From Chromera velia (Eukaryota; Sar; Chromeraceae), in assembly GCA_018398765.1 (NCBI GenBank), contig JAHBMJ010001156.1:1-34490 (forward strand): 34,490 bases of DNA, written 5' to 3'. Positions 3,502 to 28,560 of the stretch are shown piece after piece. A model generated the notes under the pieces. That model saw nothing but the letters and a program-made list of their open reading frames with translations. It did not search any database and had not been told where the DNA came from. How positions within the stretch are numbered: the first letter of the stretch is position 1; every line of letters begins with the position of its first letter. Position numbers and translations under genes: made by a program.

Positions 3502-6500
3502 TCAACGCAAGCCGCTGAAGCTCTGCCCAGAGACGCCAAGAGAGAACCTCTTGTGCTCTACACGCGTCTCAAGAAACCGAGCCAGCATGTAGAAGTCCGA
3601 GCCAGGCTTGATGAACCGGGGCCGCGCCTTCAGAGTCTCCGAACTCACCAGATCTTCAAAGAGAACGTACCTGACAACGGACATGCGTGCACGCATGCAT
3701 ATGTGTTCACATGCAGGGATAGAAAGACAGACAGGAGGGCAAACCTAGAGACCGACTTCCTCTTTCCTCCTTCCTTTCTCGTACTTTGTTTCATACCCAG
3801 ACAGATGGCAGACAGGAAGACCGGTGGGCGGGTTCTCAAATATCTTCGTTTGAGATACGAGGAAGCCTGCTACGTGCGGCCTTGATGTCCATCCACTTGG
3901 TCAGAACCAGAGCATTCTCATTGTGTCGGTGGTTTCTACCGTGAGGTCTCTCTTCTTTATCCGCTTTTCCTAAGCTGACTGACTTGAGGTCCAGCTGTCC
4001 GCTTGTGGAGACCATGTGCGCATCTAGTTGGTTCTCCACCACCGCCTTGTACCCCCGAACACCCAGCTGACTCCCCAGGATGACGTCAAAAGCGTGAGGG
4101 GCACCGCATCTGCATTGGATGGAGTCATTCATTAATTCATTCAATCATTCATTCATACATTCATTCATACATTCATTAATTCATTCATTCATTCGCTCAC
4201 TTATTCTTTGATGCGTCTGTCATTGCAGTCCTCCGTTCATCCAGTCAGTTGTTCATCCACCAACCCCTCTCATCCGGTCTTCTGTTCCTTTCTTTTTTCT
4301 TCTCGTTTATTTGCTTACTCATTCGCTCTCTCCTTCCTTCCTTCATCCACTCCCTCTGTTCTGTGTCCACCCCCGCTGTTGGTCCCCTGTCTTGTCTCTG
4401 ATTTGTCGGCCCCTTCCTTTTCCTCTTTCCTTTCCCTCAGCCGATTCAGCCACCTTTCATTCCTTTTCTTTGTGCGTTCGTCTGTGCATGAGGGCACTCG
4501 TTTCCTTAGGCTACTGCTGCAGTGGATGGAAGAAGTGCAGAGAAAGGGAAGGGGGAGAAAGCGAGGGAGAGAGAGAGAGAGAGAGAGGGAAAGAGAGGGA
4601 GAAAAGGAGAGAGAGAAGGAGAGAGGAACCAGGAGAGGAAGGGAAAGAGTCAAAGGGAGAGACACACACAGACAGACAGACACTGTCGGACAGACAGACA
4701 GACAAACAGACAGACAGTCTGAGACAGACAGATGGACACCGACTAACAGTCTGAGACACACAAAGAGAGAGGCAGCCAGACAGCCAGCCAGACAGACAGA
4801 GACAGAAAGACAGAGACAGACAGATACAGACAGATAGATAGACAGACAGGCTGGCGGAGTCTGACAGAAAGACAAGCAGAGAGACAGACGGATACACAGA
4901 CACAAACACAGACAGGCGCAGGCAGGCACACAGGCAGGCAGGGAGGCGTGCAGGCAAGCAGGCACAGACAGGCGAAGGCATGCGAATGAGGAAAGGTAGA
5001 TCGGGCAAGTGAATTAAGAGAGGCAGTTGGAGGCACCTGAAAGAAACGAGGCATATGTGAGCGTGTAAATGGCTTTGATTAGAGTCAGATGGGGCGTAAG
5101 AAGGAACTACAGGGGGACTTCTGAGAAGCAAAGCACCGACCTGCTGCTGCCTTTTTCACCGGTGCCCATCTCTACTACTCTACAGGGGGCATGCAAAAGA
5201 GTGAAAAAAAATATCCTTCTCTGTCTCTCTCTCTCTCCCTCTCCTTCCTTCTCGCCTCATCAGGTCTGCGCGTCCCCTCGTCTTCTTCAACTCCAACCGT
5301 CCCCCCTGTCTCGTCTCGATGAGTTGAAAGTCGAAAAGCAGCATGCACTCTGTGACTCCGAATGCACACACACGCATGCGCAGAGAGCGGTTGTCTGCAT
5401 GCATACCGGACCATAAGGGCACTCTCCCCCTCTCACCGTCGTCCCCCCCAAACGTGCACCTGCAGGAAGAGAAAAGAAGCCTTCCTTTTTTGTCACAAGG
5501 ATCCGACATGAGCAGAAGAACCACATTCATCTTTGCTGAAAACCACGAGCACGTCTTGCACCTTTTTTTTCTCAACGTCAGGAAGAGAAATCAAGAAGGC
5601 AACAGCACACCTGGGCACCAAACACACTGACTAACAGGCGATCCTCAAGGACGGAAAACATGCATCACTCAATCAGCCAACGAAGGACGACGGATTAAAT
5701 GATTGAAAGAAAAATAAATAATGCATGAAGGAAGAAAAAAAGAAGACCAACCGACCGCAAAGAGCATGGGTCTGGCAGACACGGTGGGGGGGTCTGATCA
5801 ACAGAGTGGGGGAGCTGGCAGACAGAGTGGGAGGGTCTGGGTAACAGGGTGGGGGGGTCTGGGAGACAGAGTGGGGGGGTCTGCAGAGGATCTGATCGGC
5901 AGGATGGGGGGGTCTTGCAGGCAGAGTGCACAGAAACTGCTGGCAGATAGAGTGGAGTGCCGGACAGAGTGCACAAAAAACTGGGAGACACGCTGGCAGA
6001 CAGAGTGGAAGGGCCTATACTAAGAGTCTTAATGAAATCACTTTCACTCGCGTTCACTGACCTTGAGGATTGTGCGTCCGTTGATGTCCGTCTTGCCAGC
6101 AGCTCTTGATGACGGGTGCAAGCAGCCATCCGACTGCAAGTCGAACCCAGAAGTGCACCTGCACAGAAGATCACACATATAAATATACATATACTGTTTA
6201 ACCTATCAAGTAGACACACAGAGACGGCAACGACACACGGCAACCAGACAGAGGCAGACTTGACAACTTGAAATGATAGGAGAAGAAAGCAAATCCAATC
6301 AGAGAGGGGTGCTCTTTTCCTTTGATTTCACGACTGACAGCCCCACGTTTCTTTTCTCTTGTACCTTTCTCTCGACATGCTCAGCTTCCCCCCTTTTGTT
6401 CGAAACAGAACCTGCAGTGAGCAAGCGACTAGCACAGGATGATCATTGGAAAGAGGCATCCAACAAAGAGGCAAGTGAGAGTGACTGACGAGTTGGTGTG

Positions 6501-6938
6501 ACACTCCCTCTTTATGCGTACGTCTTGTTGCCCTCTTCAACGATCTGCAGTCACAAAATGATCAAGGTAGAGTGGAGGAGAAGGGTCTGCAACCGCACAC
6601 AGAGCCACGGGAGACTGCTACAGGAAAGGCGTCTGCAAGGCTGACCGGTGCCTGTTCCCGCTGTGAGTCCCTCACATCCCCCCGCTGTGTTTTCCTTTTC
6701 CGCGTGTGGGTTGTCTTCTTCGCAGACGGAGACGCATCCGTGTAGGTGAAAGGACCGTGACATGGCACAGCAAGAAGACGCAGAAACACGGGAGACACGA
6801 CAGCTGCAGGTGAAGCCAAGACAAGGAGACGGAACAACAAACCAGGGTTCTGCGTCAAAGAGTGACGACTCGCTTGCTGCTTACACCCAACAAGCAAGGG
6901 AAGACAAACAGAAAGAAGAAGCAACTTTGTACGTACAT
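3502..6938 (-). CDS. Secreted protein of unknown function, six exons (about 208 aa)
   Basis: Exons in coding order are 6938-6885, 6411-6365, 6158-6062, 5630-5497, 4109-3984 and 3670-3502. They total 627 nt, and every junction keeps phase to a TGA stop. Introns start GTAAGC, GTACAA, GTCAGT, GTGACA and GTCAGT and end in AG, mostly after pyrimidines (GCAG, TCAG, TTAG). Exon 1 begins MYVQSCFFFLFVFPCLLG, a hydrophobic signal-peptide-like start. The mature part has several Cys (CTSGFDLQSDGC, KDECGSS, CGAPHAF), and the C-terminal third (VLFEDLVSSETLKARPRF and following) is free of repeats. I do not recognise the family. The two 3'-most exons are most certain; exon 1 and the exon 4 boundaries (weak GTGACA donor) are least certain. 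Intron 3 contains a G-rich minisatellite and intron 4 contains purine-rich microsatellites. Confidence 0.55.
4129..4200 (+). repeat. (ATTC)n microsatellite
   Basis: Imperfect ATTC/ATTA tetranucleotide repeats lie just inside intron 4 of the minus-strand secreted-protein gene, next to the acceptor of its fifth exon. Confidence 0.8.
4565..4960 (+). repeat. Long purine-rich (GA)n / (GACA)n / (CAGG)n tract
   Basis: About 400 bp of nearly pure purine-plus-C repeats: GA dinucleotides at 4566-4590, then degenerate GACA/CAGA units, then CAGG near 4915-4960. On the sense strand of the surrounding gene this is pyrimidine-rich intron sequence. Long open frames on both strands here are composition artefacts. 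Confidence 0.85.
5757..6012 (-). repeat. Minisatellite, CAGACCCCCC(A)C-type units read on the minus strand
   Basis: On the plus strand the unit is roughly GTCTG plus 9-20 nt plus CAGAGTGGGGGG. On the minus strand it reads CAGACCCCCCCACTCTGT, at least six diverged copies. A segment reading CAGATCCTCTGCAGACCCCC also occurs, slightly diverged, at 20008-20030 on the plus strand. It lies in intron 3 of the secreted-protein gene. Confidence 0.75.
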
Positions 6939-7200
6939 CTCAGCAAACTTCAATCAAGGTGCTTGTGATGATGTTCACTGCTAAAAAAAACTGAACGATT
7001 GCGCCCTCTATGTACACTGATGTACACTGATGCCAGCCTGTTACCGCGGGCGCGCAACAGGCGGCACGTGTTACGGGCTGCTAAAAAAAACTGAACGCTT
7101 GCCCCTTTTAGACTGATGCCATCGCGCACACGGCATGCACGCGCGAAATTCTCGTTCCAGGCCTACGCGTTTGACCGCTCGTGATGCATTACGCTGCCAC
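6939..7200 (-). promoter_or_regulatory. Probable promoter region of the secreted-protein gene, with a 100-bp duplication
   Basis: This is the 5' flank of the minus-strand gene whose ATG is at 6938. The motif CTGCTAAAAAAAACTGAACG occurs twice, at 6979 and 7079, exactly 100 bp apart. Each copy is followed by ACTGATGCCA, and TGTACACTGA is repeated in tandem at 7011-7030. Between the copies is an inverted repeat GCCTGTT (7036-7042) / AACAGGC (7056-7062). Promoter function is inferred from position only. Confidence 0.4.
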
Positions 7201-7667
7201 CTCCCCCCTGAAGAGGTGTTGTTCCCGCTATCGCCGGCTTAGGGACCGCACGTAGGAAAGCGTACAGCTATAAGAGCATCTTTCAGGGTTTGTGTCAAAC
7301 ACTAGGTCAAACATCCGGTCACACCGCGTGGTAAGCTTTGCTCCATTTGAGCCCAATGGGAACTGAGACCTTTCGCTTGTGTTGTGAACGCCGGGTCTAG
7401 CCGAGCTTGTGCACAGTCACGGATCACGATCCAATTCTCTTTGTCTCTCTCTCTTGAGCTCGTGTTCGCTGTATGTATGGTTCCGGGTTCAGTAGCTCTC
7501 CCGTGTTTTTGATTGTTTCTGCAAGTTTTGAGCATCTTCTGGAACAGACGTCAGTTGCGCCTTGGAGGGAACAACCCACCAAGAAGGATGCTTATCGCTT
7601 GGTTGCCGTCCACATCCCTGGAGCTCATGAAGAAAACAGATGAGAGGTGTACACGGTGGTTCCTTCG
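7200..7667. other. No supported gene
   Basis: Composition is mixed. Open frames on both strands (for example minus 7489-7686) overlap and show no recognisable motif. A CT run lies at 7443-7455. An exon cannot be excluded. Confidence 0.4.
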
Positions 7668-10600
7668 TTTCCATCAGACCCCCCACAGAATCTCTCTCCT
7701 GTTTCCGTCAGACGTCTTACAGAATCCCTGCCCTGTTTCTACCAGACCTCCTACAGAATCCCTCCCCTATTTCCGTCAGACCTCCCTTGTTTCCGTCAGA
7801 CGTCCCACAGAATCCTTCCCCTGTTTCTGTCATACCGCCGATAGAATCCCTCTCTTATTTTCCTTAGACCTCCCACAGAATCCTTCTTCTCAGACTGTTT
7901 CTGTCAGACCCCTCCTCTTTCCGTCCTAGTTTCCGTCAGACCTCCTACAGAATCCCTCCCCTGTTTCCGTCAGACCGCCGATAGAATCCCTCTCTTGGTT
8001 CCGTCAGACCCCCCACAGAATCCCTCCCCTATTTCCGTCACACCGTTGATAGAATCCCCCCCCTATTTCCATCAGACCCCCCACAGAATCTCTCCTCTGT
8101 TTCCATCCACCTCTCAGATGTCTCCCCTGTTTCCGTCAGACCCCCCACAGAATCCCTCCTCTGTTTCTGTCCACCCCTCAGATGTGTCCCCTGTTTCTGA
8201 CAGACCCCCCACAGAATCCCCCCTATTTCCATTAGACCTCCTACAAAATCTTTTCCCGGTTTCCATCTACATCTCCGCAGATGTCTCCCCTGTTTCCGTC
8301 AGACCCCCCACAGAATCCCACCCCTGTTTCCATCAGACCCCCAACAGAATCTCTCCCCTCAGGCTGTTTCTGTCAGACTCCTCCTCTTTCCATCAAACCC
8401 CCTACAGAATGTCTCCCCCGTTTCTGTCAGACCCCTCCTGTTTCCGTCAGTCCCCTCATAAAATCCCTCCCTTGTTTCTCTCTACCTCTCAGATGTCTCC
8501 CCTGTTTTCGTTAGACCCCCTACAGAATCCTTCCCCTCTTTCCGTCAGACCCCCCACAGAATCCTTCTTCTCAGGCTGTTTCTGTCAGACCCCTCCTCTT
8601 TCCGTCAGACCTCCTACAGAATCCCTCCCCTGTTTCCGTCAGACCCCCCTACAGAATCTATTCCCAGTTTCCGTCCACGTTTCAGATATTTCCCCTGTTT
8701 CCGTACACCTCTCAGATATCTCCTCTGTTTCCATCAGACCTCCTCCAGAATCCCTCCCCTGTTTTTGTCCACCTCTTAGATGTCTGCTCTATTTCCATCA
8801 GACCTCCTCCAAAATCTTTCCCCGGTTTCTGTCTACATCTCCACAAATGTCTCCCCTGTTTCCGTCAGACTGCCCACAGAATCCCACCCCTGTTTCCATT
8901 AGACCCCCTACTGAATCTCTCCCCTGTTTCTGTCCACCTCTCAGATGTCTCCCCTAATTCTGTCGACCTCTCAGATGTCTCTTCTGTTTCCGTCAGACCC
9001 CTTATAGAATCCTCCCCCTGTTTCCGTCAAACCTCTCACAGAATTCCTCCTCTGTTCCTGTTAGAGAATCCCTGTTTCCATCAGATCTCCTACAGAATCC
9101 CTCCCTTGTTTCCATAGACCTCCCCTGTTTCCGTACACCTCTCAGATGTCTCCCCTGTTTCTGTCAGACCTCCTATAGAATCCCTCCCCTGTTTTTGTCC
9201 ACCTCTCAGATGTTTGCTCTATTTCTATCAGACCTTCTACAGAATCTTTCCTCGGTTTCCATCCATATCTTTGCAGATGTCTCCCCTGTTTCCATCATAC
9301 CCCCCACAGAATCCCTCCCCTGTTTCCATCCACCTCTTAGATGTCTCCCCCGTTTCCGTCAGACCCCCCAAAGAATTCCTCCCCTCTTTCCGTCAGAACC
9401 CCCACAGAATCCCTCGGAGTCCCCTCTTTCTATTAGACCCCCCACAGAATCCCTCCCCTAGTCCCTCAGCTGTTTATGGCAGACCCCCTATAGAATCTCT
9501 CCCATATTTCTGTCTACTTCTCAGATGTCTCCCCTGTTTCTGTCCACCTTTCAGATGTCTTCCTTGTTTCCATCCACCTCTCAGATGTCTCCCCTGTTTC
9601 CATTAGACCCCCCACAGAATCTCTCCCCTGTTTCCGGCAGACCATCTGCAGAATCTCTCTTCTGTTTCTATCAGAGCTCCCCTGTTTCCATCAGACCCCT
9701 CCTGTTTCCATCAGACCCCCCATAGGATCCCTCCCCTGTTTCTGTCTACCCTTCAGATGTCTCCTCTGTTTCCGTTAGACCTCCTACAAAATCCCTCCCC
9801 TGTTTCTGTCAGACCCCCCACAGAATCTCCCCTATTTCCGTCAGACCCCTGAGGCTCCTGTTTCCGTCATACCCCTCATAGAATCCCTTCCCTGTTTCTG
9901 TCCACCCCTCAGATGTCTCCCCTATTTCCGTCAGACCTCTTACAGAATCCCTCCCCTGTTTCCGTCAGACCCCCCACAGAATCCCTCCCCTTAGACTGCT
10001 GACAGAATCCCTTTTTCTTTTTCATCAGACCGTCTAATTCCATTAGACCTCCTATAAACCCCCTACAGAATCCCTCCCCTGTTTTTATCAGACCTCCTAC
10101 AGAATCTCTCCCCTGTTTCCATCAGATCTCCCCTGTTTTTTCAACTCCCCCCCCCGTTTTCTACAGTATCTCTCACTACAGTATCTCTCCCCTCCCTTGT
10201 TTCCGTCAGACCCGCCACAGAATGTCTCCCCTATTTCTGTCAGGTCTCTGAAAGAATCCCTCCTCTGTTTCTGTCAGACCCCCTCCGTTTCTGTTAGACT
10301 CCCCTTTTTTCCACCCATCACAAAATTCGTTGCCAATGTATATCAGACCCCCCAGAGGTTCTATCCCCTCTTTCCGTCAGAGTCTCCACAGACTTTCTGT
10401 CAGATATCCTACAGAATCTCTCCCCTCTTTTCATCAGATCTCCTACATGTCCCCTCTGTTTCCGTTACACTCCCCTTGTTTTCGTCAGAGCTGCTTCAGC
10501 TGTTTCCATCAGACCTTCCACAGAATCCCTCCCCTGTTTCCGTTAGACTCTCCACAGAACCCCTCGCCTATTTCCTTCTGCCCTCCCCAGAGAATCCCTC

Positions 10601-11015
10601 TTCTTTTTTTATCAGACTCTCTACAGACTTTCTGCCAGATATCCTGCACAATCCCTACTCTCTTTCTATCACATCTCCTGCATGTCCCCTCTGTTTCCGT
10701 CCACCTCTCAGTTGTTTTCTCTGTTTCCATCAGACCTCTTAGTATAGAATCCTTCCCCTGTTTCCGTCTACCTCTCAGTTGTCTCCTCTGTTTCCATTAG
10801 ACCTCCTATAGAATCCTTCCCCTGTTTCCGTCTACCTCTCAGTTGTCTCCTCTGTCTCCATCAGCCCTCCTACAAAATCCTTCCCCTGTTTCCGTTTACC
10901 TTTCAGATGCTTCCTCTGTTTCCGTCAGACGTCCTACAAAATCCGTTGCCGATTTTCTTCAGACCTCCCACAGAATCCTTCTCCCATTTCCGTCAGACCT
11001 TCTTCAGAATCCTTT
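7668..11015 (+). repeat. Large pyrimidine-rich minisatellite (about 34-bp unit)
   Basis: About 3.3 kb of tandem copies. The main unit joins CAGACCCCCCACAGAATC to a CCCTCCCCTGTTTCCGT-type half (34 bp). A shorter variant starts CCACCTCTCAGATGTCTCCC (about 30 bp) and is interspersed in blocks. The plus strand is mostly pyrimidine. Because 34 is not a multiple of three, successive copies step through all three frames, and the consensus has no stop in any forward frame. Long open frames such as 7995-8957 therefore arise without coding meaning; they read as cycling RPPTESLPCF, RQTPHRIPPLFP and SDPPQNPSPVSV. Copies are diverged by substitutions and short indels and fade out at both ends. Confidence 0.92.
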
Positions 11016-11991
11016 GCATACGGGTGAATATACGATTACATATATGTATGTATACGTCTTTTGCCCTGCTCTCTACATATGCAGCTGTCTAGCTGAGAAA
11101 AGGAGACGGCACCCCAGGGCGCTTGCTCTTCAACTTACGGGCGCCCCCCCGCCCCCCTTGTGATCAACAGAAATCCAATGGATTCCTCTATCTAAGCATT
11201 GCTCCAAAAAATCGGTCAGTTGTCTTTCCTTCTTCAAATGGTTTCTTTCACAGCTAGAAAGAATGCTGGCTCATAACTGTTGCGAAATGTTGTACTTGCT
11301 GTTGCTGCTGCTGCTACTTGTTACTCTAAGTTTTGGTAAGCAAATATGGCAAAAAAAAGATAACGTGGTCGCAGTGGTAATGATTGTGGCTGTTAAGGTA
11401 CACGGAAAAAAAATCGATGATCCAGACCTACTCAGCTTGTTGTTGATCATACACACACATGCAGTCTTGATTTTGTTCTCTCACTCAAGAACTACACATG
11501 ACCAACATGACGACTCTTTCTCCTCCATTCTCAGGATGCCCATAATGTGTAGTGGGACTTAGCTGGCATGGCTGTATCTCTCTTTGCAGTGCCAATGATG
11601 ACCACTGCTAGTGATGATGAGGACAATAGCGGTGCTATAGTGAGGATAACGATGATGGCAGCAGCTGATGACAAGAAATATGCTCAGCCATCGGACTCCA
11701 ATGAGGAGAAGACGGTGATTTACATTGATGTATACATGATATTGTGGAGGCATTTAAAGGCGACTAGATACTTAAATGCTGCGACATCATCATTAGTTCA
11801 AAAAATATACGCTTATCCCTTTGGCTCGCTTATGAATTGAAGTTCTATCTTCAAACTGCTATTAAAGTTCATCTCTAGGTTCATCTACATTGTTTCTTAA
11901 GGAGTGTATTTATGCTATCTCTTTATATAACAATTGTTGACTATAATATACAAAAGGTAAAGACATTCATTCATTTGAAATACCCTTATGC
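11016..11991. other. AT-leaning DNA with no supported gene
   Basis: Contains CTG-type triplets near 11295-11320 and several short frames (plus 11263-11562, plus 11568-11840) made of hydrophobic low-complexity residues. No domain was recognised. The left end of the large TIR element follows at 11992. Confidence 0.45.
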
Positions 11992-12219
11992 TAGGGGCCT
12001 AGCTGAATACCGAAAGGCTATAAGTTCGATTGTAAGAACGAGCATTTTTTATGTATTAATCTAAAAAGTAGAGAATACGGTTGTTATTGTGATATTAAAG
12101 TGGTATCTCAATCCTTTACAGTTATAGTGGAGAAGTAACATTAAGTCGTATGAAAAGAATGTTTAACAGATGTTACGACTCCTTTTTTGAAACCCACAGA
12201 TGTACTTTTAGAGTAGGGC
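11992..12219 (+). repeat. Left terminal inverted repeat, outer part
   Basis: Pairs with the minus strand of about 20860-21060. Diagnostic matches: TAGGGGCCTAGCTGAATACC at the tip, GTAGAGAATACGGTT (about 12067), GTTTAACA(G/A)ATGTTA and TAGAGTAGG at the break. It contains many substitutions and several small indels. The repeat is interrupted at 12219/12220 by the nested element. Confidence 0.8.
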
Positions 12220-14079
12220 GACCTCCTTAAACCTAACCACTACTTAAAAACTCAAGCCGCATTTTTGGATAAGCTTGAAAGTCTGTGCCGCAGGCGCAGA
12301 TCATTTACAACGTCTTGAAAGCCAAAGCCACATATAGTGACCATGTTTGATTTGATTATATTTGATTTGATTTGATTTGAGCTTCAACCTCAAATATTTG
12401 ATATTTGAGGTAAGATTTGAGGTTAACCTCTTAGGGTTCCTCACTGAGTCACTGACTTACTATCACTCTGATCATTTTTCTCATGACAATAGTTATCAGA
12501 ACATTTCTGATGTGTGTTTCAAAAATTTAAAAAAATATATATATAATTATAACTTATCAGTTCCGTAAAAAAAATATGCCTGTGTGGCAGTGTATATACA
12601 CTAGTCACTGAGACTCACTCTAGTACTAATAGAGATTAAGAACGTAAAATTGATAGATTTGAAATTGCATATGACTTTTTGTTGATACGATAAAGTTAGA
12701 GCACGTACCAAAATTGAGGTGACAATCACTCAGCTTTATGGCACTTCCTTTTCCTCTTTTTCATGATCACTTTCTTCAATGTGAATCGAATTGATCGGTG
12801 GTGGGAGCTGCTGAGAGCTTTTTCTCTGGCTTTTCGGTTTTTTAGGAGTGGGTGCTCTTGGGCTTCTATTCGGTTGTGGAGAGATGACAACGGGGTGAGA
12901 CGGAGAACCACGCACACGTTTGCTATTGCTGTTGGTGTTGGAACGGTGTGGGTTACCGTCCTGTTTCTGGGTAGCTAAGCATCCAGAGTTAGTAAGTTCG
13001 GCTACCCTCTGTGCCGCACCAGGGCCGACAACAAGCCCCTTGTATTGGAGGTAAATATAGAGAGGTCGGTAGCCTTCCTCACCCGGAGTGATAACTTTCT
13101 CAGGAGGGGGAAGTTTCCCACCAACCTTGATTCTCTTCTTATGCGTCTCTGTATATGGTGCAACCACGGCTTCTGCTTCATCTTTGGTGGGGAAAAACGT
13201 TCACACGTCAGGCTACTTCGTCCCCCCTGCCCCTTCCGACGACTTTTCCTGTCTTTCTTGGAGCAGCTACACATGTTTGTCAGACGTGATCGTCAAACCA
13301 TACTGATTGATGAGGTGGGTTTGAAAAGAACTGGTTGCCGCTGCTGTATACTCACAGCCATAAATAGTTTCTCCTTCCCTCTCGGCTCCTTATATTTTCA
13401 CCTGACACTGAATCACATTTGCCCCCTTTTGCACGGACTATATTTTTTTTGCGTACCCGGCTCTAAAACCACATGCCTCTTTCTTCCCGTTCGACCCTGT
13501 CGGATTGTATGACATGTCTTTACGGGGTGTAAAATGTTTGCAGACGCTTAAAAAGGGGGCCGTAAAAGATGTTCCAGCACCAGAAAAGTCAACACAGCTG
13601 TTCAGCAAAACGTTCAGCTGATCGGTTTACCTCTATATGAAGTAAAAGGGGGTGAAACGTCAATTTCAGTGCAGCTCAAAACGTTTTTGTTTTTGAGAGC
13701 AAACCATCAAGATTTAGGTTTTTTCATTTGAATCAGCATGCGTGACGGATCGGTACTTACAAAAGTTTTTTCGGGACCTTCATATTTGAGGTTGAAAGTC
13801 ATATTAATCAAATATTTGATCGTATTTGATAGGTCTTTAAAATACTAGGTCCTCCCTGACTGGATATTTGATTTGAGCTTAAGCCCTACCTCAAATCAAA
13901 TCAAATCAAATCAAATCAAATCAAATCAAACATGGTCACTAGCCACATACATTATCTAGACGGTATTTTGAACGCCTACGCCGCAAGCGTAGACGGTCTC
14001 TTAAAAAACAATGCCGCAGATAGAGATGATCTTGATGATATTTTTTTAAGTGACACTTAGGTTCAGGGAGGTTTAACTT
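12220..14079. mobile_element. Nested element inserted in the left TIR, 8-bp AGTAGGGC flanks
   Basis: The sequence AGTAGGGC lies on both sides (12212-12219 and 14080-14087), and the outer TIR alignment resumes exactly past the second copy. This fits an 8-bp target-site duplication, the length typical of hAT elements. The ends form a diverged inverted repeat: ACCTCC-TTAAACCTAA near 12221 against ACCTCCCTGAACCTAA read inverted near 14075, then TGCCGCAGGCG / TTGCGGCGTAGGCG, GTGACCATGTTTGATTTGAT and TTTGA pentamer runs (12361-12380; 13890-13930). The right tip has about six extra bases, so the exact terminus is uncertain. The interior holds a broken minus-strand gene (12730-13515). Confidence 0.7.
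12730..13515 (-). pseudogene. Broken gene in the nested element, possible zinc-finger protein
   Basis: From the ATG at 13515 one frame runs 262 codons to TGA at 12730. It is interrupted only by TAG, TAA, TAG, TAG, TGA and TAA, with no frameshift. It starts MSYNPTGSNGKKEACGF. Around 13300-13340 it reads TSSFQTHLINQYGLTI, which resembles the end of a BED-type zinc finger (TS...HL...H) with the last His replaced by Tyr. The C-terminal 140 residues (GYRPLYIYLQYKGLVVGPG and following) end in a Pro/Ser/Lys-rich, then acidic, tail. A BED finger would suit a hAT-type element, but no RNase H-like transposase core is present, so this would be a fragment or an accessory protein. The family is not recognised with confidence. 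Confidence 0.5.
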
Positions 14080-14262
14080 AGTAGGGCTATATATGTATAA
14101 ATTTTTATATATCTAATGATCAACTAAAGTAACTGTTTTAGTAATAAAAAATAAGAACCGAATGCCTGAGCAAAATAAGTATATTACTAGCAGTGGCCTA
14201 GGTAATAGTGTATAAGGACTATTTGGAAACATGTTTATACCTAGGTTTATACCAACGGCACT
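14080..14262 (+). repeat. Left terminal inverted repeat, inner part
   Basis: After the second AGTAGGGC copy the outer inverted repeat continues. TATATATC(T/C)AATGATCAACT, GCAAAATAAGTATATTACTA, GCAGTGGCCTAG and ACATGTTTATA all match the minus strand of about 20697-20870. The match ends near CCAACGGCAC, inside the start of the chromodomain ORF. Confidence 0.8.
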
Positions 14263-15092
14263 GGCCGGAGACTTGGAACTACTAAACGAATACCTTAGAG
14301 TGAAAGGTTTACCTACTGCTAGAGGTAGCCAAGCAGTGCCTGACGTAACAACAACAACTAAGTGGGAGGTGGAAGAGATTCTGGATTACGACGAGCGATG
14401 CAATTGGTACAAAGTGAGGTGGCAAGACTCTCCACTTGGAAAAGATAATCCAGATTGGGCGAATACAGCCGATTTCAAAGGCTGTGGTGACCAGTTATTG
14501 ATTGAGTATCATCACAAAGTTACAAAAGATCTCCAGCTTCTTGAACAACATCTTGCTGTATTGAACTTTGACCAATGGGAATGAGACCATGATCTACTAA
14601 CTTTAGCAGCGACGAGAGTAAAAACCGAGGGGGGAGAAGAGGCAAGCATAAAATTTGTACCAAGCGCAGAGCTTAAATATTTTTTCAAATATCAGATTCC
14701 ACCCACTCTTTAAGAAGAACTCGGTCAAGTACACCTTACATTAAAGGCATTGTATGAATCAGGAAGAGAAATATAGAGAAAACCTCGTTCACTCATGGCA
14801 GCTGATCAAATGATGACAAGCTCTCAAGATTAATAAGCAAAGAGCTCATCTGGATGGATTAAAGCGATTCAGTTAACGCTTCAAAAGCAAGCAGCCTCTT
14901 TTGTTTACTCTGCTCAGCCTGGCATCTTTCAGGAGATGGAAGACTTTATGCGAGACGACTCGTTAATATACCGAGGTAATAGCCCTTGTAGTAACACTCT
15001 TTACAGCTCCCAACAACTATATCAGCTGGAACTACTAGGGTCTCACCACACCATAGTTGTTTTAAAAAGAATTGACGGACACGCTGTTGGGT
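14231..15092 (+). pseudogene. Chromodomain protein gene next to the left TIR, with in-frame stops
   Basis: The uninterrupted part (14231-14584, 117 codons) starts MFIPRFIPTALAGD and contains a chromodomain-like segment: WEVEEILDYDERCNWYKVRW, then NPDWANTADFKGCGDQLLIEYH. Chromodomains bind methylated histone tails and occur in integrases and transposases as targeting modules. A TGA follows, but the same frame continues with protein-like sequence (AELKYFFKYQIPP, EELGQVHLTLKALYESG, SGWIKAIQLTLQKQAASF, QLELLGSHHTIVVLKRIDGH), broken only by TAA, TAG, TAA-TAA and then TAG at 15090-15092. It stays open apart from one more TAA until TGA at 15289. The start overlaps the inner edge of the TIR. No catalytic residues were recognised. 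Confidence 0.55.
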
Positions 15093-15493
15093 AGCTGGTG
15101 AAGAGTGTACTATACGATCGAAAAACGACTTGGTATTTCGGCTTCTCCAAATGGCTGAGTGTATATCTGTAAAAGGGTTCATTTTCAGAAGGAATTGAGA
15201 CTATGTTTGTGTACTTTTTGTTTTTATATTCAAGTATAAATGTACATGATTTTTTAAATAAAAACATGCAAGTTTTTGGTGCACATTGAAAGGGTAATAT
15301 GTGCATATGACACAAATCCGTACATTGAAAGGCGGACAGATGTGAGTGATATAAGCAAAAAGTGTTTTGTGAATCTAGTTTGTGGATGCAAAAAATACCG
15401 TCTTTAGGCAAATGCTCGCAAAACTTTTAACAGACCTGGAAAAACCCCCGAGTGAACCCTCAATAGACTTTGATTTGCTTCCACTTCACCCGG

Positions 15494-16282
15494 TCACTAC
15501 ATTTCTGCAGATGAAAAAAAAACTTATACACCCACTTCTTTCTATATTCCTGTAAGAACATACATGCAGCCACTGTGGTGCAAATCATCATCCAATTTGA
15601 AGGAAACTGTTTAAGTCTGCAACTATTTGTATACAAATTCGGAAATGTAATCAGATTTGACTTTATTAGGTGGAATTCCAAAAGCTTGTCTCATATTGAT
15701 TTCATAGCGATCCATATTGAACGCATAAAAATCACGTTTCTATTTTTCTCATGACTTAATATTTTTTACCCCCTCTATATGATCTCCACTATTGTTTATC
15801 ATCATATCATGAGAGTACATGGTCGTACACTGAGCAGAATTTATTATTTGTGTCCTCAAAAACTCAGCAAACTCATTTTTGTTGAGCACAAAGTTAAGGT
15901 TCTGTATAAGCTGCTTGAACTCGGACGAAGTCTTCAAATATTCCTTCACAAAGGCACCATACTCTCTTGGGTGTGAAAAAACAAAGAAGTGCCTCTCCAT
16001 CAGGCACTTAATGTTTATTTCAAATCGCTTAGACAACCAGTCAATCAACGATTGAAGCCGGTTGTCCTGGTACCACCAAAACTTGTTTGATGTCTTTTCA
16101 TCACGTACGATAAACCAAAATTCCCAGGGATCAGTTTTATTTGAGACGTTTAGCCCCCATTTTGCAGAAGAAGTGTCAGCTGGAATACATATAAAATAAA
16201 TTATTATGGAACCCAGTCCCCCGTGGTTGAAACGGTTAGCCTTTTTCAAAGATATCCTAAAAGATATCTTTGATTGATACAA
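15494..16282 (-). pseudogene. Element gene of unknown function with UAR-rich C-terminal part
   Basis: The frame 16282-15749 is open for 177 codons (KWGLNVSNKTDPWEFWFIV, NKFWWYQDNRLQSLIDWLS, MERHFFVFSHPREYGAFVK) and ends in TGA. The same frame goes on with an ATG at 15715: MDRYEINMRQAFGIPPNKVK, then LDDDLHHSGCMYVLTGI, to TGA at 15494. This 74-codon part holds five TAG/TAA codons and no TGA before its end, yet still reads like folded protein. The N-terminal boundary is unclear. Upstream minus-strand frames (16283-16420) also look coding but are shifted. No family recognised. Confidence 0.5.
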
Positions 16283-16336
16283 GCGCTAGAGTATACTGTG
16301 AGCTCTCAATGGCCTAGCTCAATGGCTTTTTCTAAT

Positions 16337-16507
16337 TCATTATAGTCGAATGGTAATGGCCTAGGGTACTGGCTTTATTTATACTGCAGCACTGCTATAC
16401 CATGGTGCCTGTGCTACAAAGCTATTAATGACCAGTTGCTGATCTGGTTCTTCTAAGGGAGGAAACGATGGAGCGTACCGCATACCCTGGACATTAATTT
16501 ATGGCCA
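16337..16507 (-). pseudogene. Short element ORF fragment sharing WP-INVQG with 16973-17000
   Basis: Read on the minus strand, 57 codons run WP, TAA, INVQGMRYAPSFPPLEEPDQ and on to TGA, interrupted by TAA, TAA, TAG and TAA only. A second minus frame here reads PFDYNELEKAIELGH, so a frameshift near 16380 may join this fragment to the gene starting near 16282. The first residues match those encoded on the opposite strand at 16973-17002 (WPQINVQGIR). Confidence 0.35.
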
Positions 16508-17003
16508 TTCTATGCGTGCATAGGCGTGCGAGACCAATCTAAAACCATCCCCCCCTTTCACTGACCATCCCGCCTGAGCATGAGGTGGGGGCGTCTTCCT
16601 AGCCAAGCAAAAGCAAACAATACATGCTGTTGCTACCTATCCGTTTACTTGTTGCTTTGCTTTCTAACAGCTTTTCTACTCATCTCTCACATACACTTTC
16701 TCACCACTAGAGTGTTGCATCGATTAACAGAAGTCCAGGCACTGTAGTAAGACACAGTCAGTCAGTCAGTCCGTATGGAGCGTGAAAAAAAACGAGTATG
16801 CAGATGAACAATGCATGAATGAGTGCGTACATTCTCTGCATCCACGCATGCAGAGGGCGCCAGGCGGCGGCGGCATCCCCCCCCCCTCCACGGCGCATGC
16901 TCGTTGGTCGGGGCCGGCCCAGGTCCTGTATGAAGGCCTGCAGAAAAGAAAAAGAAAGTGAAAGCATACAAATGGCCACAAATTAATGTCCAAGGTATCC
17001 GCT
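16477..17003. repeat. Inverted pair of about 35-bp arms (16477-16512 and 16965-17003)
   Basis: The minus strand of 16477-16512 and the plus strand of 16965-17003 share AATGGCCA(T/C)AAATTAATGTCCA and flanking bases. They could be TIRs of a 0.5-kb nested MITE, or two divergent coding segments with a common peptide. Differences fall partly at synonymous positions (CAG/CAA, CGG/CGC), which favours the coding reading. The 450 bp between the arms is GC-richer and has no clear gene. Confidence 0.5.
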
Positions 17004-17169
17004 TGTGGTTGTCTGGTCCACCTAAAAAGAGTAATTTTTTTTTTAATAGGAGAAAATCAGTTGACCGCTCATTGTGGGGTGGAGGGGGTGCATGCTTCCA
17101 GAGAAGTTTTGTATATTCCTTTAGAGTGGACCTTCCAGAGTGAAGGAGGTCGTCGCGTGGTGGATTTGT

Positions 17170-19046
17170 TTAGATGAGTTGGTAGTCGTCAAGGGATGAA
17201 ATTTTCTTAGCCTCAGCTTTTTTTGCAGCTCTTGTAGGCAATGATACTGATGTTAATGGGCTTTCAATACATTTTATAATAGTAAACTGTCTTTTCCATA
17301 GAGTTTTTTCCTTCTTGCTGTTATTTTTCTTTTTTTCTTTGTTTTTGATTATCTTGCTGCTATCATTGCAGCTATATGATATATTGTGGTTACTTTTCTG
17401 AATCATTTCATTGGTAGTGGTGGAGAGGGTCACCATTGTACTGCTGTTACTGCTGCTATCATCACTGCTGCTACTACTACTGCTGCTGCTACTGCTACTC
17501 AGACTTGGAGTCTCTCTTTCCACATGAATATTGCTAGGCAGGGCACTCAAGTCAAGCAGACACTTCTTTTCTTCTATTGTATCACTAGTGTCTGTTGTAG
17601 CATTACCAAAATCTGTCGTTAGCTCATCTGTAGAGAGCAGCTGGACTGTTACATCTAGTGCTATCTTTGTCGGTGCTTGTGCTGTTACTGTTGTTGCGGA
17701 TATATGTTTTGACTATGTTTGCACCTCTGCTTGCAGCTCTTTTTGCACCTCTGTTTGCACATCTTTTTGCACCTCTGTTTGCACCTCTGTTTGCACCTCT
17801 GCTTCCACCTCTGCTTGCACTTCTGCTTGCACTTCTGTTTACATCTCTGCTTGCACCTCTGTTTGTAGCTCTGCTTCTACCTCTGCTTGCACCTCTGCTT
17901 GTACTTCTGCTTGCACCTCTGTTTGCACCTCTGCTTGCACTTCTGCTTACACTTCTGCTTGTATCTCTGCTTACACTTCTGCTTGCACCTCTGTTTGCAC
18001 CTCTGCTTGCACCTTTGCTTGCACTTTTGTTGTACTTTTTGTCTTTACTTCTAGTATCTGTGGTGCAGCTTCTACGATCTCTTTTGTTTCCACTACTGGT
18101 GTTGACTTCATATTTTGTTGTCTTTCCATGCTTTTCAAGGTTGATACTGATGCTGATGCTACATTTGACAGCTCTATGATCTCACTTTAAATTTTTTTTC
18201 TGCTTCTACCTGCAGTGCCTCTGTAGGTATTGCTTCTGCGGTCTTCTCTTTTTCTTTCATTTCTGTTACCAAAACGGGTGTCAACGCTTTATCTTCCTGC
18301 TGTTGTGTATTAGTTTGTATTTTTACTTACACTTGCAGCCCCACCTTTGCTCCTAATGCAAAAGCAGATGTTGATGCCTTATTTATTGATCTATGCTGAA
18401 TCTCCTTTTCTATGTTTTTTTGTGGTAGTTCTGTAGGTGGTTCTTCTGCTGATATTTCATTTTGTCTTCCCATGTCTGCAGACACTTCTTTGGTAGGGGC
18501 TATTGGAGCCATTACTCCGCTGACTGGACAAGGTACAGTCATTGTTTCACATTTCGTTTAACTTTGTTTATTGTTAGTTTCAATACAGTGGATTTGACTA
18601 ATAATGCTTACTGTTTTCAGGTCGTTTAGACATGTACTGGGGATACTCTTAGTAAAAAGACGTAGACGGCTCTTCATCACAGAGGGCCCTATAGGTTTTC
18701 TATCATTTGTTGCGAATAATAGCCTAAGAGTGGGAGAAATATACTTCAAGCTATAATTTGTTTGAGTGACACCTGACTCTGCTTGAGTATGAGAGTCTGT
18801 TTTCTTGTTATCAGCCCACTGTATCTGTGTTGAAGAATTAAATACTGTTTGCTTGCATCTTAACATTTTTTCAAGCTCCTCTTTCAAAGCAATTATCGCT
18901 TTATCTTTTTTGTTAACTTGCTTTTCAAGATAAACAGTACGCTTTTGATAAGATGATAAGTGTTGTTGAAGGTATTGTGTTGATTTATACTATTTTCCAC
19001 AGTGTTCGCACGTTTTAATCATCATCATAGACTCGTTAGGTTGCAT
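17170..19046 (-). pseudogene. C2H2 finger / coiled-coil / EVQ-repeat protein of the element
   Basis: The frame starts at an ATG at 19046. The N-terminus holds a C2H2-like finger, CEHCGK-stop-YKS followed by QQHLSSYQK: the TAG sits where Gln is common, and the last zinc ligand is Tyr instead of His. A coiled coil follows (YLEKQVNKKDKAIIALKEEL). Then come a Pro/Glu-rich linker, about 28 tetrapeptides of type EVQA/EVQT (18040-17710), a poly-Ser block (near 17490-17460) and a Lys-rich tail. One frameshift in an A8 run (about 18190) separates the two halves. In more than 600 codons there are about nine TAA/TAG and no TGA. The frame can be read past the TAA at 17170 to about 17000. A regulatory or structural DNA-binding protein is possible; no family assigned. 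Confidence 0.55.
17710..18040 (-). repeat. 12-bp coding repeat for EVQA/EVQT tetrapeptides
   Basis: On the minus strand the unit is GAGGTGCAAGCA with variants (GAA, ATA, ATG, CTG; ACA for GCA), about 28 copies. Length is kept in multiples of three throughout. Three copies have TAA in place of CAA. The peptide has a regular acidic/hydrophobic/polar pattern and could form an extended helix. Confidence 0.8.
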
Positions 19047-19094
19047 AATAGCTGCAGTGCTTATATTTGATAGTTGTCTTATAAGTAAACGCTT

Positions 19095-19415
19095 TCAGTT
19101 CTTTAGGTCGTTTTTGAACCCACTTGTTGCCCTTTGTATATTTTGCCTTTTGTTAACAGTCTTGCATGTCTATCTTTTATGCTTTAAAGCAGTAACGATC
19201 TGATGCTCGACAGTGTAAGCAACACGTAATCTTGTAGGCTTACTGGTGCTACATACTTCCAGAAAGAACCACTGTAAGGTAGTGACAGAATTTGGGTAAG
19301 GCACATACTGCATATACTTATAATCGGGGTAACATGTAGTTATACAGCAGGAATAAAGTTTCTCTTGTTCAGATACAGCCTTGATTATACAAAAGAAAAC
19401 AAGACTGAAAAAACA
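19095..19415 (-). pseudogene. ORF fragment upstream of the C2H2 gene, same frame
   Basis: Between TGA codons at 19416 and 19095 the frame reads LYSCCITTCYPDYKYMQYV, SVTTLQWFFLEVCSTSKP and RLRVAYTVEHQIVTALKHKR, then one TAG, then a basic stretch. It ends at TGA and continues in the same frame into the C2H2 gene 16 codons before its ATG. It may be the N-terminal part of that gene or a separate small gene. A TTTTTTCAG acceptor-like site lies near its start. No family recognised. Confidence 0.35.
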
Positions 19416-19967
19416 TCATACTTAAGTGAAGGCTTTACTTATTGCCAGTCAACTATTCCCACTCCGTCTCACTCTTGTTTTCTCTCATTTTGTTCTCTTT
19501 TCTAGTATCCATATGTATTTTTATTGTGGTGATGCAATGTAATCTTGTTGTTTTATTAGTATTCCACTTCTTTTTCATCGTCTGCTTTCATTCCTCTGGG
19601 ATTTATCGTCTGCCCTAATGTTGTTCCAACTTATCCTATATATTCTGTTTATAGTTTATTTGCCTTCATCGCTTTATATTCTTTCTCTCTTTATTCCATG
19701 ATGATTCTGCTCAGATTTTTATGAGCGAATGTTGCTTTCTGTGCAATGTCTGATTGACGCCCTGGGGCATAGCTATGAGGGGCGTAATCTACCTATCTAT
19801 TCATATTGTCTGGTTCAGTAAGTGATATGATTATTTTTTTATAGATCGTTCCTCATACATACTTTCTGTTTCTCTGCACTCTTTTGTTGGCCACTCATCT
19901 ATTGTTTTAACATTCAATTGCTTCCTTTGTTTCCTATCAATGCTCTTTTCTCCCTGTAGACCTCTCC
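19416..19967. other. T-rich interior of the element, no gene seen
   Basis: Pyrimidine- and T-rich plus strand with stops in all frames. No coding or repeat structure was recognised before the minisatellite at 19968. Confidence 0.45.
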
Positions 19968-20535
19968 AGATCTCTCCACCCTCTGCAGACCCCCCCACCC
20001 TGTGGATCAGATCCTCTGCAGACCCCCCCGCCCTGCTGATCAGATCTTCCGCAAATCCCCCCACTCTGTTTGCCAGATCCTCCTACCCTGTTAATTAATT
20101 CTTTTTTAGACCCCTCCGCCCTTTCTGCAGACCCCCCCACCCTACTTGTTAAATCTCCCCTATTCTATCCGTCAAATTTCTATAGATCCCCCCACCCTGC
20201 CTCTCAAATTCCCCCCTACCCGGTCCTTTAAATTCCTCCCTACCCGGTCCGTCAAATTTTTTCTTACCCGGTCCGTCAAATTTTTAGTGATACCTCTATC
20301 TTGTCTGTATATCAGATTCTCTACAAATCCCTTGACCTTGCTGGGTAGACTCCTCTCTGCCCTGCCGATCAAATTTCTATAATCTTTACTTTTTGCAGAA
20401 ACTCCTATATCAAATTTCTGTAAACCCCTTCTTCCGTGTTCATCAAATTTCTGCAAAAGCCCCCTCAATGTCAAATTTCCGCAGAACCCCCTCAATCGTG
20501 TCATTAAATTTCTGTAGACCCCCCTCTAACGTGTC
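19968..20535 (+). repeat. Pyrimidine-rich minisatellite inside the element
   Basis: The first half has units like CAGATCCTCTGCAGACCCCC plus CACCCTG. The second half has shorter units of the type TACCCGGTCCGTCAAATTT (about 24-27 bp), then CAAATTTCTG-type units. The first half matches the array at 5757-6012 in opposite orientation, and its CAGACCCCCC core recalls 7668-11015. Confidence 0.8.
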
Positions 20536-20694: not shown

Positions 20695-21060
20695 GTGCCG
20701 TTAGTATAAACATGTTTTTGAATATACTTTCTACACTACTATCTAGGCCACTGCTAGTAATATACTTATTTTGCTTAGGTGTTTGGTTTTATATTTTTTT
20801 ATTACTAAGGCAGTTACTTCAGTTGATCATTGGATATATAAATATTTATATAACATTGTGTATACTCCTACTCTAGAAATATATTTATAGTTTAAAAAAG
20901 GAATCATAACATTTGTTAAACGTTCTTTTTATACCACCCTCTACTATAAATGCAAAGGTCACTTAAATAATATTACAATCATAACCGTATTCTCTACTTC
21001 TTAGATTACTGTACAAAAAATCGAACTAATATAGCCTTTTGGTATTCAGCTAGGCCCCTA
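20695..21060 (-). repeat. Right terminal inverted repeat of the 9-kb element
   Basis: Read from 21060 downward: TAGGGGCCTAGCTGAATACC, then AAGTAGAGAATACGGTTATG, then TTTAACAAATGTTATGATTCC, then AATGATCAACTGAAGTAACT, then ACATGTTTATA. Each has a counterpart in the split left repeat. DNA to the right is GC-richer. Confidence 0.8.
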
Positions 21061-21139
21061 CCACCCCTCAGGGCCCTCTGTGACTGGTCGCTCCGGTCGC
21101 TTCGATCTGTTTCTTCTCCAATTTATCTTAATGACATGT

Positions 21140-26858: not shown

Positions 26859-28560
26859 ATGGGGGGGACTTTATCAAATCTGTGGGCAGAAAGAGATATC
26901 AGCAAACATTCTGAGCACAGCATGCCGTTGAAGATTTTCTTTGCAGAGAAGGGGGGGGCGGCAAACGTCGACTCTCTCGCGCTTGATCCCAAACATGATA
27001 CGCTTGCTCAGATGGAAGCACTGGCGAGAGGTCGCTGTTTGGAGAATGACACCTGGTACGTCGGCTTGAAAGTCTTCAGAGACGGCAAGATGGTGTCATG
27101 GTGTCCGAAGAAGAAGATCGACTTTTATCTCGGTTGTTCTTTTCACGTGCAAGTTTGCTCCGTCAAGAAGCTTAGCTTCGTTGAAGAGGAAGATGGAGAG
27201 TGGGTCCATCGTCAGAAGATCGATGCCAAACCTTCTGATACAGGCGAGAGCTTGAAGGCCAAGATCCGGAGCTCCGTTGAAGTTCCTCAAGAGCTCCAGT
27301 ACTTGATGACCCTCGACGGACAGCACCTGGCAGACAACACGCCTCTGTCGAAGTATGACTTTGGGACAAACGCAAGCGTGCATCTGCAGCTTTCACCCGT
27401 CCCAAATTCAGATAATGCCCTGATTTGGGTGTTTGTGCACACTCTCACTGGGAAAATTGTGGACATTCCGATGAACATCTGTGATGATGTTTTGACCGTC
27501 AGTTTGGCTACTTCTCCCCACTTCCTTCCTCTCCTTCTCACTCTTCTGCGGTGATCCTTTTCCCTTCCCTTCCCTTCCCTTCCCTTCCCTTCCCTTCCCT
27601 TCCCTTCTCGCCTCTCGCATCGGATTCCCTCTGCCGCCTCTGTCTCCCCCGCGCATCCCATCCCGGATAGTATTGCGAAGTTTTTGGTTTGGATTATTCT
27701 GAGAAGAGGTACACAGATTCAGACGCATTCCTGGCTCGCTCATACACCTGATGCATTTACCAAACCCTGCTATTGTCCCCTGTGTGTCTACTCATGCCCT
27801 CGATATGCAGCTGAAAGAAAAGATCCAAGACAAGGAAGGTATCCCGCCAGAGCAGCTGAGGCTAATCTATGAGGGCAAGCAACTGGAAGATGCAAGAACG
27901 CTTCTCGACTATGGAGCAACATCCGAATGTACGACTATTCACATGGTGCTGCGTCTGCGGGGTGGTCATATCCCGCCCACTCCGTTTGTCGACGTACGTG
28001 GTGCTCTGAGGGTGCAGCAGTTCAGCGACAGTGCTCCTTCCTGGCGGACGGTCAGACCGGGGCTGAACCTGCACGGAAAGTGCAAAAACCGAAATTGCAG
28101 GGCCTACGGGCACCAGGTGATCATGCCGCAGGGTATGGAGAGCTTTGACTTTATTCTCAGCTCTGCAGACTGCACATGTCCGGAGTGCGGTATCTGGACC
28201 CAGCCAGAGACGTGCGGGTTCTACAAGTGCCAGTGGAGCCACGAGGCTATTTTCTTGCAGGGTCCTGGCACGCGTCCGGAAACTATTCGGGGTGACTGGC
28301 AGAGTGCAATTCACAAGGCTTACCAGAGGTTTGAGGAGGGTACGCAGTCGCTCAACTACGTGCGCCTTGTGTTCTTCATGCGAGAACTGGATGAGGCAGA
28401 CGAATGCTGCGTCTGCTTTGAGGGGTTGCACAGAGACGTTGTCACACCCTTCGCTTGCAGGCGCCACCGATTCCACCACCTCTGCGTCCAGGGGTGGCTC
28501 GAGAATGCGACCAACACCTGCCCTCTGTGCCGGGCTGCCCCGGCAAGGGTACCTGCGTGA
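26859..28560 (+). CDS. Ubiquitin-like/ubiquitin/zinc/RING-H2 fusion, probable E3 ligase (462 aa)
   Basis: Exons 26859-27497 and 27811-28560 join in phase 0 (ACC/GTCAGT ... ATGCAG/CTG), stop TGA. The start MGGTLSN fits the N-myristoylation pattern (Gly2, Ser6). Domains: N-terminal region of about 110 aa, unrecognised; a ubiquitin-like domain (about 115-190: [32 protein letters not shown]); a ubiquitin domain (about 197-272: [39 protein letters not shown]) ending in intact LRLRGG; a Cys-rich zinc module ([30 protein letters not shown]); and a C-terminal RING-H2 ([19 protein letters not shown]). The intron falls inside the ubiquitin fold and confirms the join. It would transfer ubiquitin to substrates, possibly at membranes. 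The internal LRLRGG-H junction is a potential deubiquitinase cleavage site. Confidence 0.85.
27558..27606 (+). repeat. (TTCCC)n in the intron of the RING gene
   Basis: About ten perfect CCCTT/TTCCC pentamers lie within the single intron (27498-27810), 60 bp after the donor. Confidence 0.9.

Follow-up and report, generated by a model that had tools for sequence, protein, structure and literature searches.

The in-frame stop codons that interrupt the element genes of a 34,490-nucleotide contig of Chromera velia (C1155, the whole of which we refer to as the window) are very probably standard-code nonsense mutations in broken copies of what are likely to be transposon genes, mostly C-to-T changes at CpA and CpG, with deamination of methylcytosine as their likely source. 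That these genes have decayed by C-to-T change is well supported, and recoding, in which UAA and UAG (UAR) would be sense codons, is rejected. The gene families occur in many copies, open copies stand beside broken ones, the damage is independent between copies, the genes themselves end in UAR, and both strands carry an excess of C-to-T change at CpA and CpG, inside as well as outside coding frames. Under the mechanism that we propose, CAA and CAG would become TAA and TAG by C-to-T change at CpA, TGG would become TAG through the same change on the other strand, and CGA would become TGA at CpG. The elements would have moved as transposons, their cytosines would be, or would once have been, methylated, deamination of 5-methylcytosine at CpA and CpG would be the cause of the changes, and broken copies would then decay gradually and neutrally, without selection.

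Frames as rich in UAR as these can be mistaken for recoding when genomes are scanned, and a false lead is hereby removed. Three simple tests settle the matter, namely whether UAR stands at Trp positions, whether the family's own terminators are UAR, and how fast CpA changes outside Gln codons. Beyond that, a C-to-T bias at CpA and CpG has been measured in the repeats of a chromerid alga.

The window was compared with the rest of the 177.8-Mb assembly to which it belongs; the published C. velia assembly is given as 193.66 Mb, about 30 Mb of it transposable elements (PMC4501334). The original prediction, made from the sequence of the window, described five segments with long protein-like frames whose stops are mostly TAA and TAG. 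Matches in the genome confirm that these frames belong to real gene families, but the segments are not all separate, since the third, fourth and fifth are one gene, here called BC, split by an insertion. The features of the element are as follows.

11989..12217, + strand: left inverted terminal repeat, outer part, with 70% identity to the reverse complement of 20867-21063
12335..13941, - strand: small element lying in the left terminal repeat, with inverted ends of 46 bp
12736..13515, - strand: gene of the small element, degraded, ending at its own TAA stop (12738-12736), with four UAR and a TGA in frame ahead of it
13953..14240, + strand: left inverted terminal repeat, inner part, of which 14096-14240 pairs with 20704-20850 (86%)
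14258..14959, + strand: gene A, of the chromodomain family, without its first 234 residues, alignable with residues 235-481 of the copy in contig C1391, which is open
15611..19115, - strand: gene BC, degraded, ending at its own TAA stop (15613-15611), colinear with the frame in contig C90
16474..17006, no strand assigned: insertion of about 530 bp splitting BC, with ends GGACATTAATTT and AAATTAATGTCC, found in no other BC copy
17713..18030, - strand: EVQA repeat array inside BC, with a 12-base unit and three TAA at CAA positions
20704..21063, + strand: right inverted terminal repeat, pairing with 14096-14240 and 11989-12217

The inverted terminal repeats flank a convergent pair of genes, A on the forward and BC on the reverse strand, and the small element has inserted into the left repeat, separating its outer and inner parts. 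Both the larger and the small element have inverted repeats in their window copies; the arms of the small element (12335-12380 and 13896-13941) are 96% complementary, with TA at both edges by eye, and by eye the larger element has no clear target-site duplication. A second copy of the insertion found in BC lies in contig C1089 (26410-26935, 87% identity). With the insertion set aside, positions 14263-19951 of the window are colinear with 18580-23699 of C1089 and, in large part, also with C3477, C3401, C90 and C1725.

Gene A is fully open in C1391, where it forms a single frame of 481 codons with which positions 14231-14257 of the window do not align. The genome holds 72 matches to this family, 19 of them free of internal stops, and the matches with stops hold in total 66 TAG, 38 TAA and 21 TGA. 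The codon at 14960-14962 is TCG in the window copy and TAG in the closest relatives of like orientation (L002, L003, L004, L005 and L007), which places the usual end of A after 14959, so that the remainder of the segment, 14963-15092, is probably non-coding. As to what A encodes, the Pfam chromodomain (PF00385) passes the cut-off in one relative (E=8.9e-06) and falls short of it in three other matching relatives and in L045; no other Pfam family was above the cut-off, and a search of the PDB gave weak chromodomain matches only (E 0.79; 0.13 and worse). The first part of A may resemble a GIY-YIG nuclease. With an A copy from the same assembly as query, the one protein-database match was a UniRef entry from C. 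velia CCMP2878 (95% identical across 23% of the query). The PHROGs collection held no match for A or BC, and a plasmid collection gave none.

Gene BC runs for 850 codons without a stop in C90. The TAA at 15613-15611 is kept in every one of the six copies aligned at that point and is the terminator of BC, which changes the reading of the densest UAR cluster in the window. Five UAR and a TGA are indeed present between 15494 and 15715, as first reported, but most of them are no candidates for recoding, since one of the UAR is this terminator, three more and the TGA lie beyond it, and a single UAR (15625) is inside the gene. The claim that very few frameshifts interrupt the frames is borne out for A (0 or 1 frame-breaking gap runs) but not for BC (6 to 14), as counted between the window copy and five other copies with gaps of at least 200 left out; some stretches of the fourth and fifth segments are out of frame because they follow such gaps or lie inside the insertion. 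No Pfam family above the cut-off and no protein-database match was found for BC, and the N-terminal part of the window copy resembles a C2H2 finger, below the Pfam cut-off. In the EVQ array all three stops do stand in place of CAA, as had been noticed, making TAA 3 of the 22 CAA/TAA units; in 4 of 24 units the usual GTG is replaced by a codon ending in A.

At least 151 matches to the protein of the small element were found in the genome. Among the 150 matches listed, 78 are free of internal stops and the other 72 hold 72 TAG, 18 TAA and 6 TGA. Its terminal TAA is common to eight other aligned copies, and no Pfam family was above the cut-off for the protein. The genes of all three families therefore terminate in UAR: TAA in six of six copies of BC, TAA in the window copy and eight others of the small element, and TAG in the five relatives of A named above.

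The residues that the stops replace can be read from the other copies. For the 13 stops of the window copy that align inside A or BC (a set without the three EVQ-array stops and without one further stop in A, two more aligned stops lying past the end of A), the other copies have mostly Gln at eight, mostly Trp at two, and Arg, Glu and Tyr at one each. The original prediction would have given up recoding if other copies had CAA or CAG at every such site; Gln codons at 8 of 13 tell mostly against recoding. The 30 best copies of A contain 32 stops, and for 27 of them a single residue makes up at least 60% at the position concerned. Eleven of the 27 are at Trp positions (9 TAG, 1 TAA and 1 TGA, of 90 codons), eight at Gln positions (4 TAG and 4 TAA, of 119 codons) and five, all TGA, at Arg positions (of 148 codons), with two UAR at Tyr positions (of 149 codons) and one at Ala (of 60). 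The presence of UAR at Trp positions argues against a code in which UAR is Gln and for C-to-T change acting through the other strand. The TGA codons that had been seen in mid-frame are real but not random, since five of the six at classifiable positions stand at Arg and one at Trp.

Substitution rates by codon were obtained for A and BC together from five copies (the window copy, C3477, C1089, C3401 and C1725). Change of Gln CAR to TAR (33/197) is no more frequent than non-silent change of NCA to NTA (63/371, p=1.0). The corresponding rates are 48/263 for NNT|G>A, 33/131 for silent NNC|A>T, 7/82 for Trp TGG>TAG and 5/37 for Cys TGY>TAY. His CAY>TAY (5/61) is below Gln CAR>TAR (p=0.15), and is 0/13 in the window copy alone. 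In C90 and C1391 the rate of CAR>TAR is 3/62, and in the window copy the changes at codon positions 1, 2 and 3 number 90, 70 and 108 of 709. In the frame of the small element, CAR>TAR is 9/63 and NCA>NTA 1/63, with CAY>TAY at 5/45; the first pair, taken alone, would favour recoding. However, four of the six copies fetched for this set were chosen for having stops, and the excess sits in those four (8/35 against 0/27), whereas the four other copies, with the window copy left out, have none (1/21 against 1/26).

The sequence context of the changes was taken from leave-one-out counts within repeats only (nine copies of the small element and seven of A and BC). In the small element C-to-T change is about three times as frequent at CpA (112/1248) and CpG (49/548) as at CpC (25/853) and CpT (38/1127), with T>C at 77/5493, although the choice of copies may raise these counts somewhat. 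In A and BC the counts are 239/1470 at CpA, 48/311 at CpG, 63/789 at CpC and 168/1497 at CpT, with T>C at 615/10602. The excess at CpA over CpC and CpT together is significant in both (p=4e-12 and p=4e-08), albeit modest in A and BC (0.163 against 0.080 and 0.112), and CpA is not favoured over CpG in either (0.090 against 0.089 in the small element and 0.163 against 0.154 in A and BC). Eight other repeat pairs, in which changes are not polarised, gave 136/717 at YpA, 78/395 at YpG, 52/597 at YpC and 88/712 at YpT (YpR against YpY, p=3e-09); the YpA excess is absent from the pair C3477/C3766 and there is hardly any in the inner terminal repeat. C-to-T change spread over non-coding parts, the other observation that was to tell against recoding, is therefore found as a bias outside frames in most, but not all, of the repeat pairs tested.

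Some stops are common to several copies. At four sites in A and BC the window copy has a UAR in common with C3401, C1725 or C1089, and in an unrooted tree of A and BC it does not group with C3401 or C1089, which makes recurrent change at CpA the simpler reading of these common stops. In the small element the window copy has a UAR in common with L055, and the two are sisters (support 0.99), so that the copy shared by their lineage was probably already broken when it propagated.

It is very improbable on these data that UAA and UAG mean glutamine in the element or in its genome of origin. Nuclear codes with UAR as Gln are known from ciliates, and long frames broken mainly by UAA and UAG are what they share with the window families. 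Such codes exist among alveolates, the authors of a study of Amoebophrya sp. ex Karlodinium thinking Gln the likely reading of UAA and UAG there (PMC12005148). The predominance of UAR among the stops and the many at Gln positions would fit a donor code of this kind, which the original prediction had put forward; the UAR common to several copies and the lower rate at His than at Gln codons in A and BC speak against C-to-T decay. Against such a code, UAR in these families also sits at Trp positions and terminates the genes, Gln codons in A and BC show no excess over other CpA changes, many UAR sites have CAR in other copies of the same genome, and the EVQ array of C1089 uses 35 CAA and 1 CAG against 1 TAA. 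A scan of the window found no tRNA genes. It is equally improbable that the genes work and that introns or untranslated stretches of theirs contain the stops. The UAR cluster does lie in part past the stop of BC, and 16474-17006 is an insertion, but BC in C90 is one uninterrupted frame across the in-gene stops of the window copy that align to it and A in C1391 runs through 481 codons in one open frame, and these open, unspliced copies rule introns out. A strand-specific, APOBEC-like editor of a single-stranded intermediate, which would suit the dominance of C-to-T in several copies, is likewise ruled out, in this case by strand symmetry; on the coding strand of A and BC, C-to-T and G-to-A at CpA/TpG stand at 134/760 and 109/610 (p=0.94), leaving such an editor a negligible chance.

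Transposon pseudogenes decayed by methylcytosine deamination are familiar from plants and animals, and resemble the present families in their many copies, open beside broken, in two-strand C-to-T change and in stops at Gln, Trp and Arg codons; they differ in that the present families have CpA raised as much as CpG, and methylation is here something we infer. Fungal RIP changes C to T in repeats while sparing single-copy DNA, on both strands and with a preference for CpA even over CpG. It has in common with our observations two-strand C-to-T change in repeats, raised at CpA and leaving TAA and TAG. An active defence of this type, which would recognise repeats and act in bursts of C-to-T mutation, chiefly at CpA, is possible but unlikely as the source of the stops. 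C-to-T change at CpA is elevated in several families of repeats, on both strands alike, and in copy L054 C-to-T makes up 26 of the 30 changes counted; but CpG is changed as often as CpA, CpC and CpT are not spared, other copies are rich in other changes (20 transversions beside 27 C-to-T in the window copy), and L054 was among the copies chosen for their stops. The window repeats, which were compared among repeats only, differ from RIP in having no CpA-only preference and no evidence of a burst, and of the hypermutation originally offered as an alternative to recoding the C-to-T change stands but a strict burst does not, gradual decay fitting equally well. We accordingly doubt that a defence akin to RIP, disabling repeats by C-to-T change at CpA and CpG, exists in this algal relative of the apicomplexan parasites; if it did, it would leave whole transposon families studded with TAA and TAG. 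RIP has been linked to DNMT4, and several families of DNA methyltransferases are described from diatoms and dinoflagellates in a paper whose main text does not include Chromera (PMC9998398). Neither RIP nor cytosine methylation of chromerid transposons appears in the titles and abstract openings of the open-licence literature searched.

Further frames and repeats lie in the window or near copies of its elements. Frames that match Prim-Pol, PriCT_2 and, weakly, D5_N occur near copies of A (L038:1770-2597, - strand, in C1391; L043:1519-4157, + strand, in C3766). The primase gene of C1391 is convergent with A, like BC in the window, and A may be part of a family of DNA elements with a primase-helicase of their own. 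Contigs C211 and C877 hold distant relatives of A, C and B on one strand, where the genes of the window are convergent. A Retrotransposon Gag frame (PF03732, E=5.7e-12) lies at L039:1867-2571 (+ strand) in contig C90, some 5 kb away from the copy of A/BC. Minisatellites rich in C, with a unit length of about 33-34 bases, occupy 5768-6016, 7654-11004 and 19980-20209 of the window, and similar arrays lie near A/BC copies in C90, C1725, C3477 and C3766. A further repeat of about 1.3 kb, outside the A/BC finding, relates 6172-7427 to C3401:57555-58818 (84% identity), and an open frame of 269 amino acids at 27751-28560 is by eye like a host gene of ubiquitin-like and RING type.
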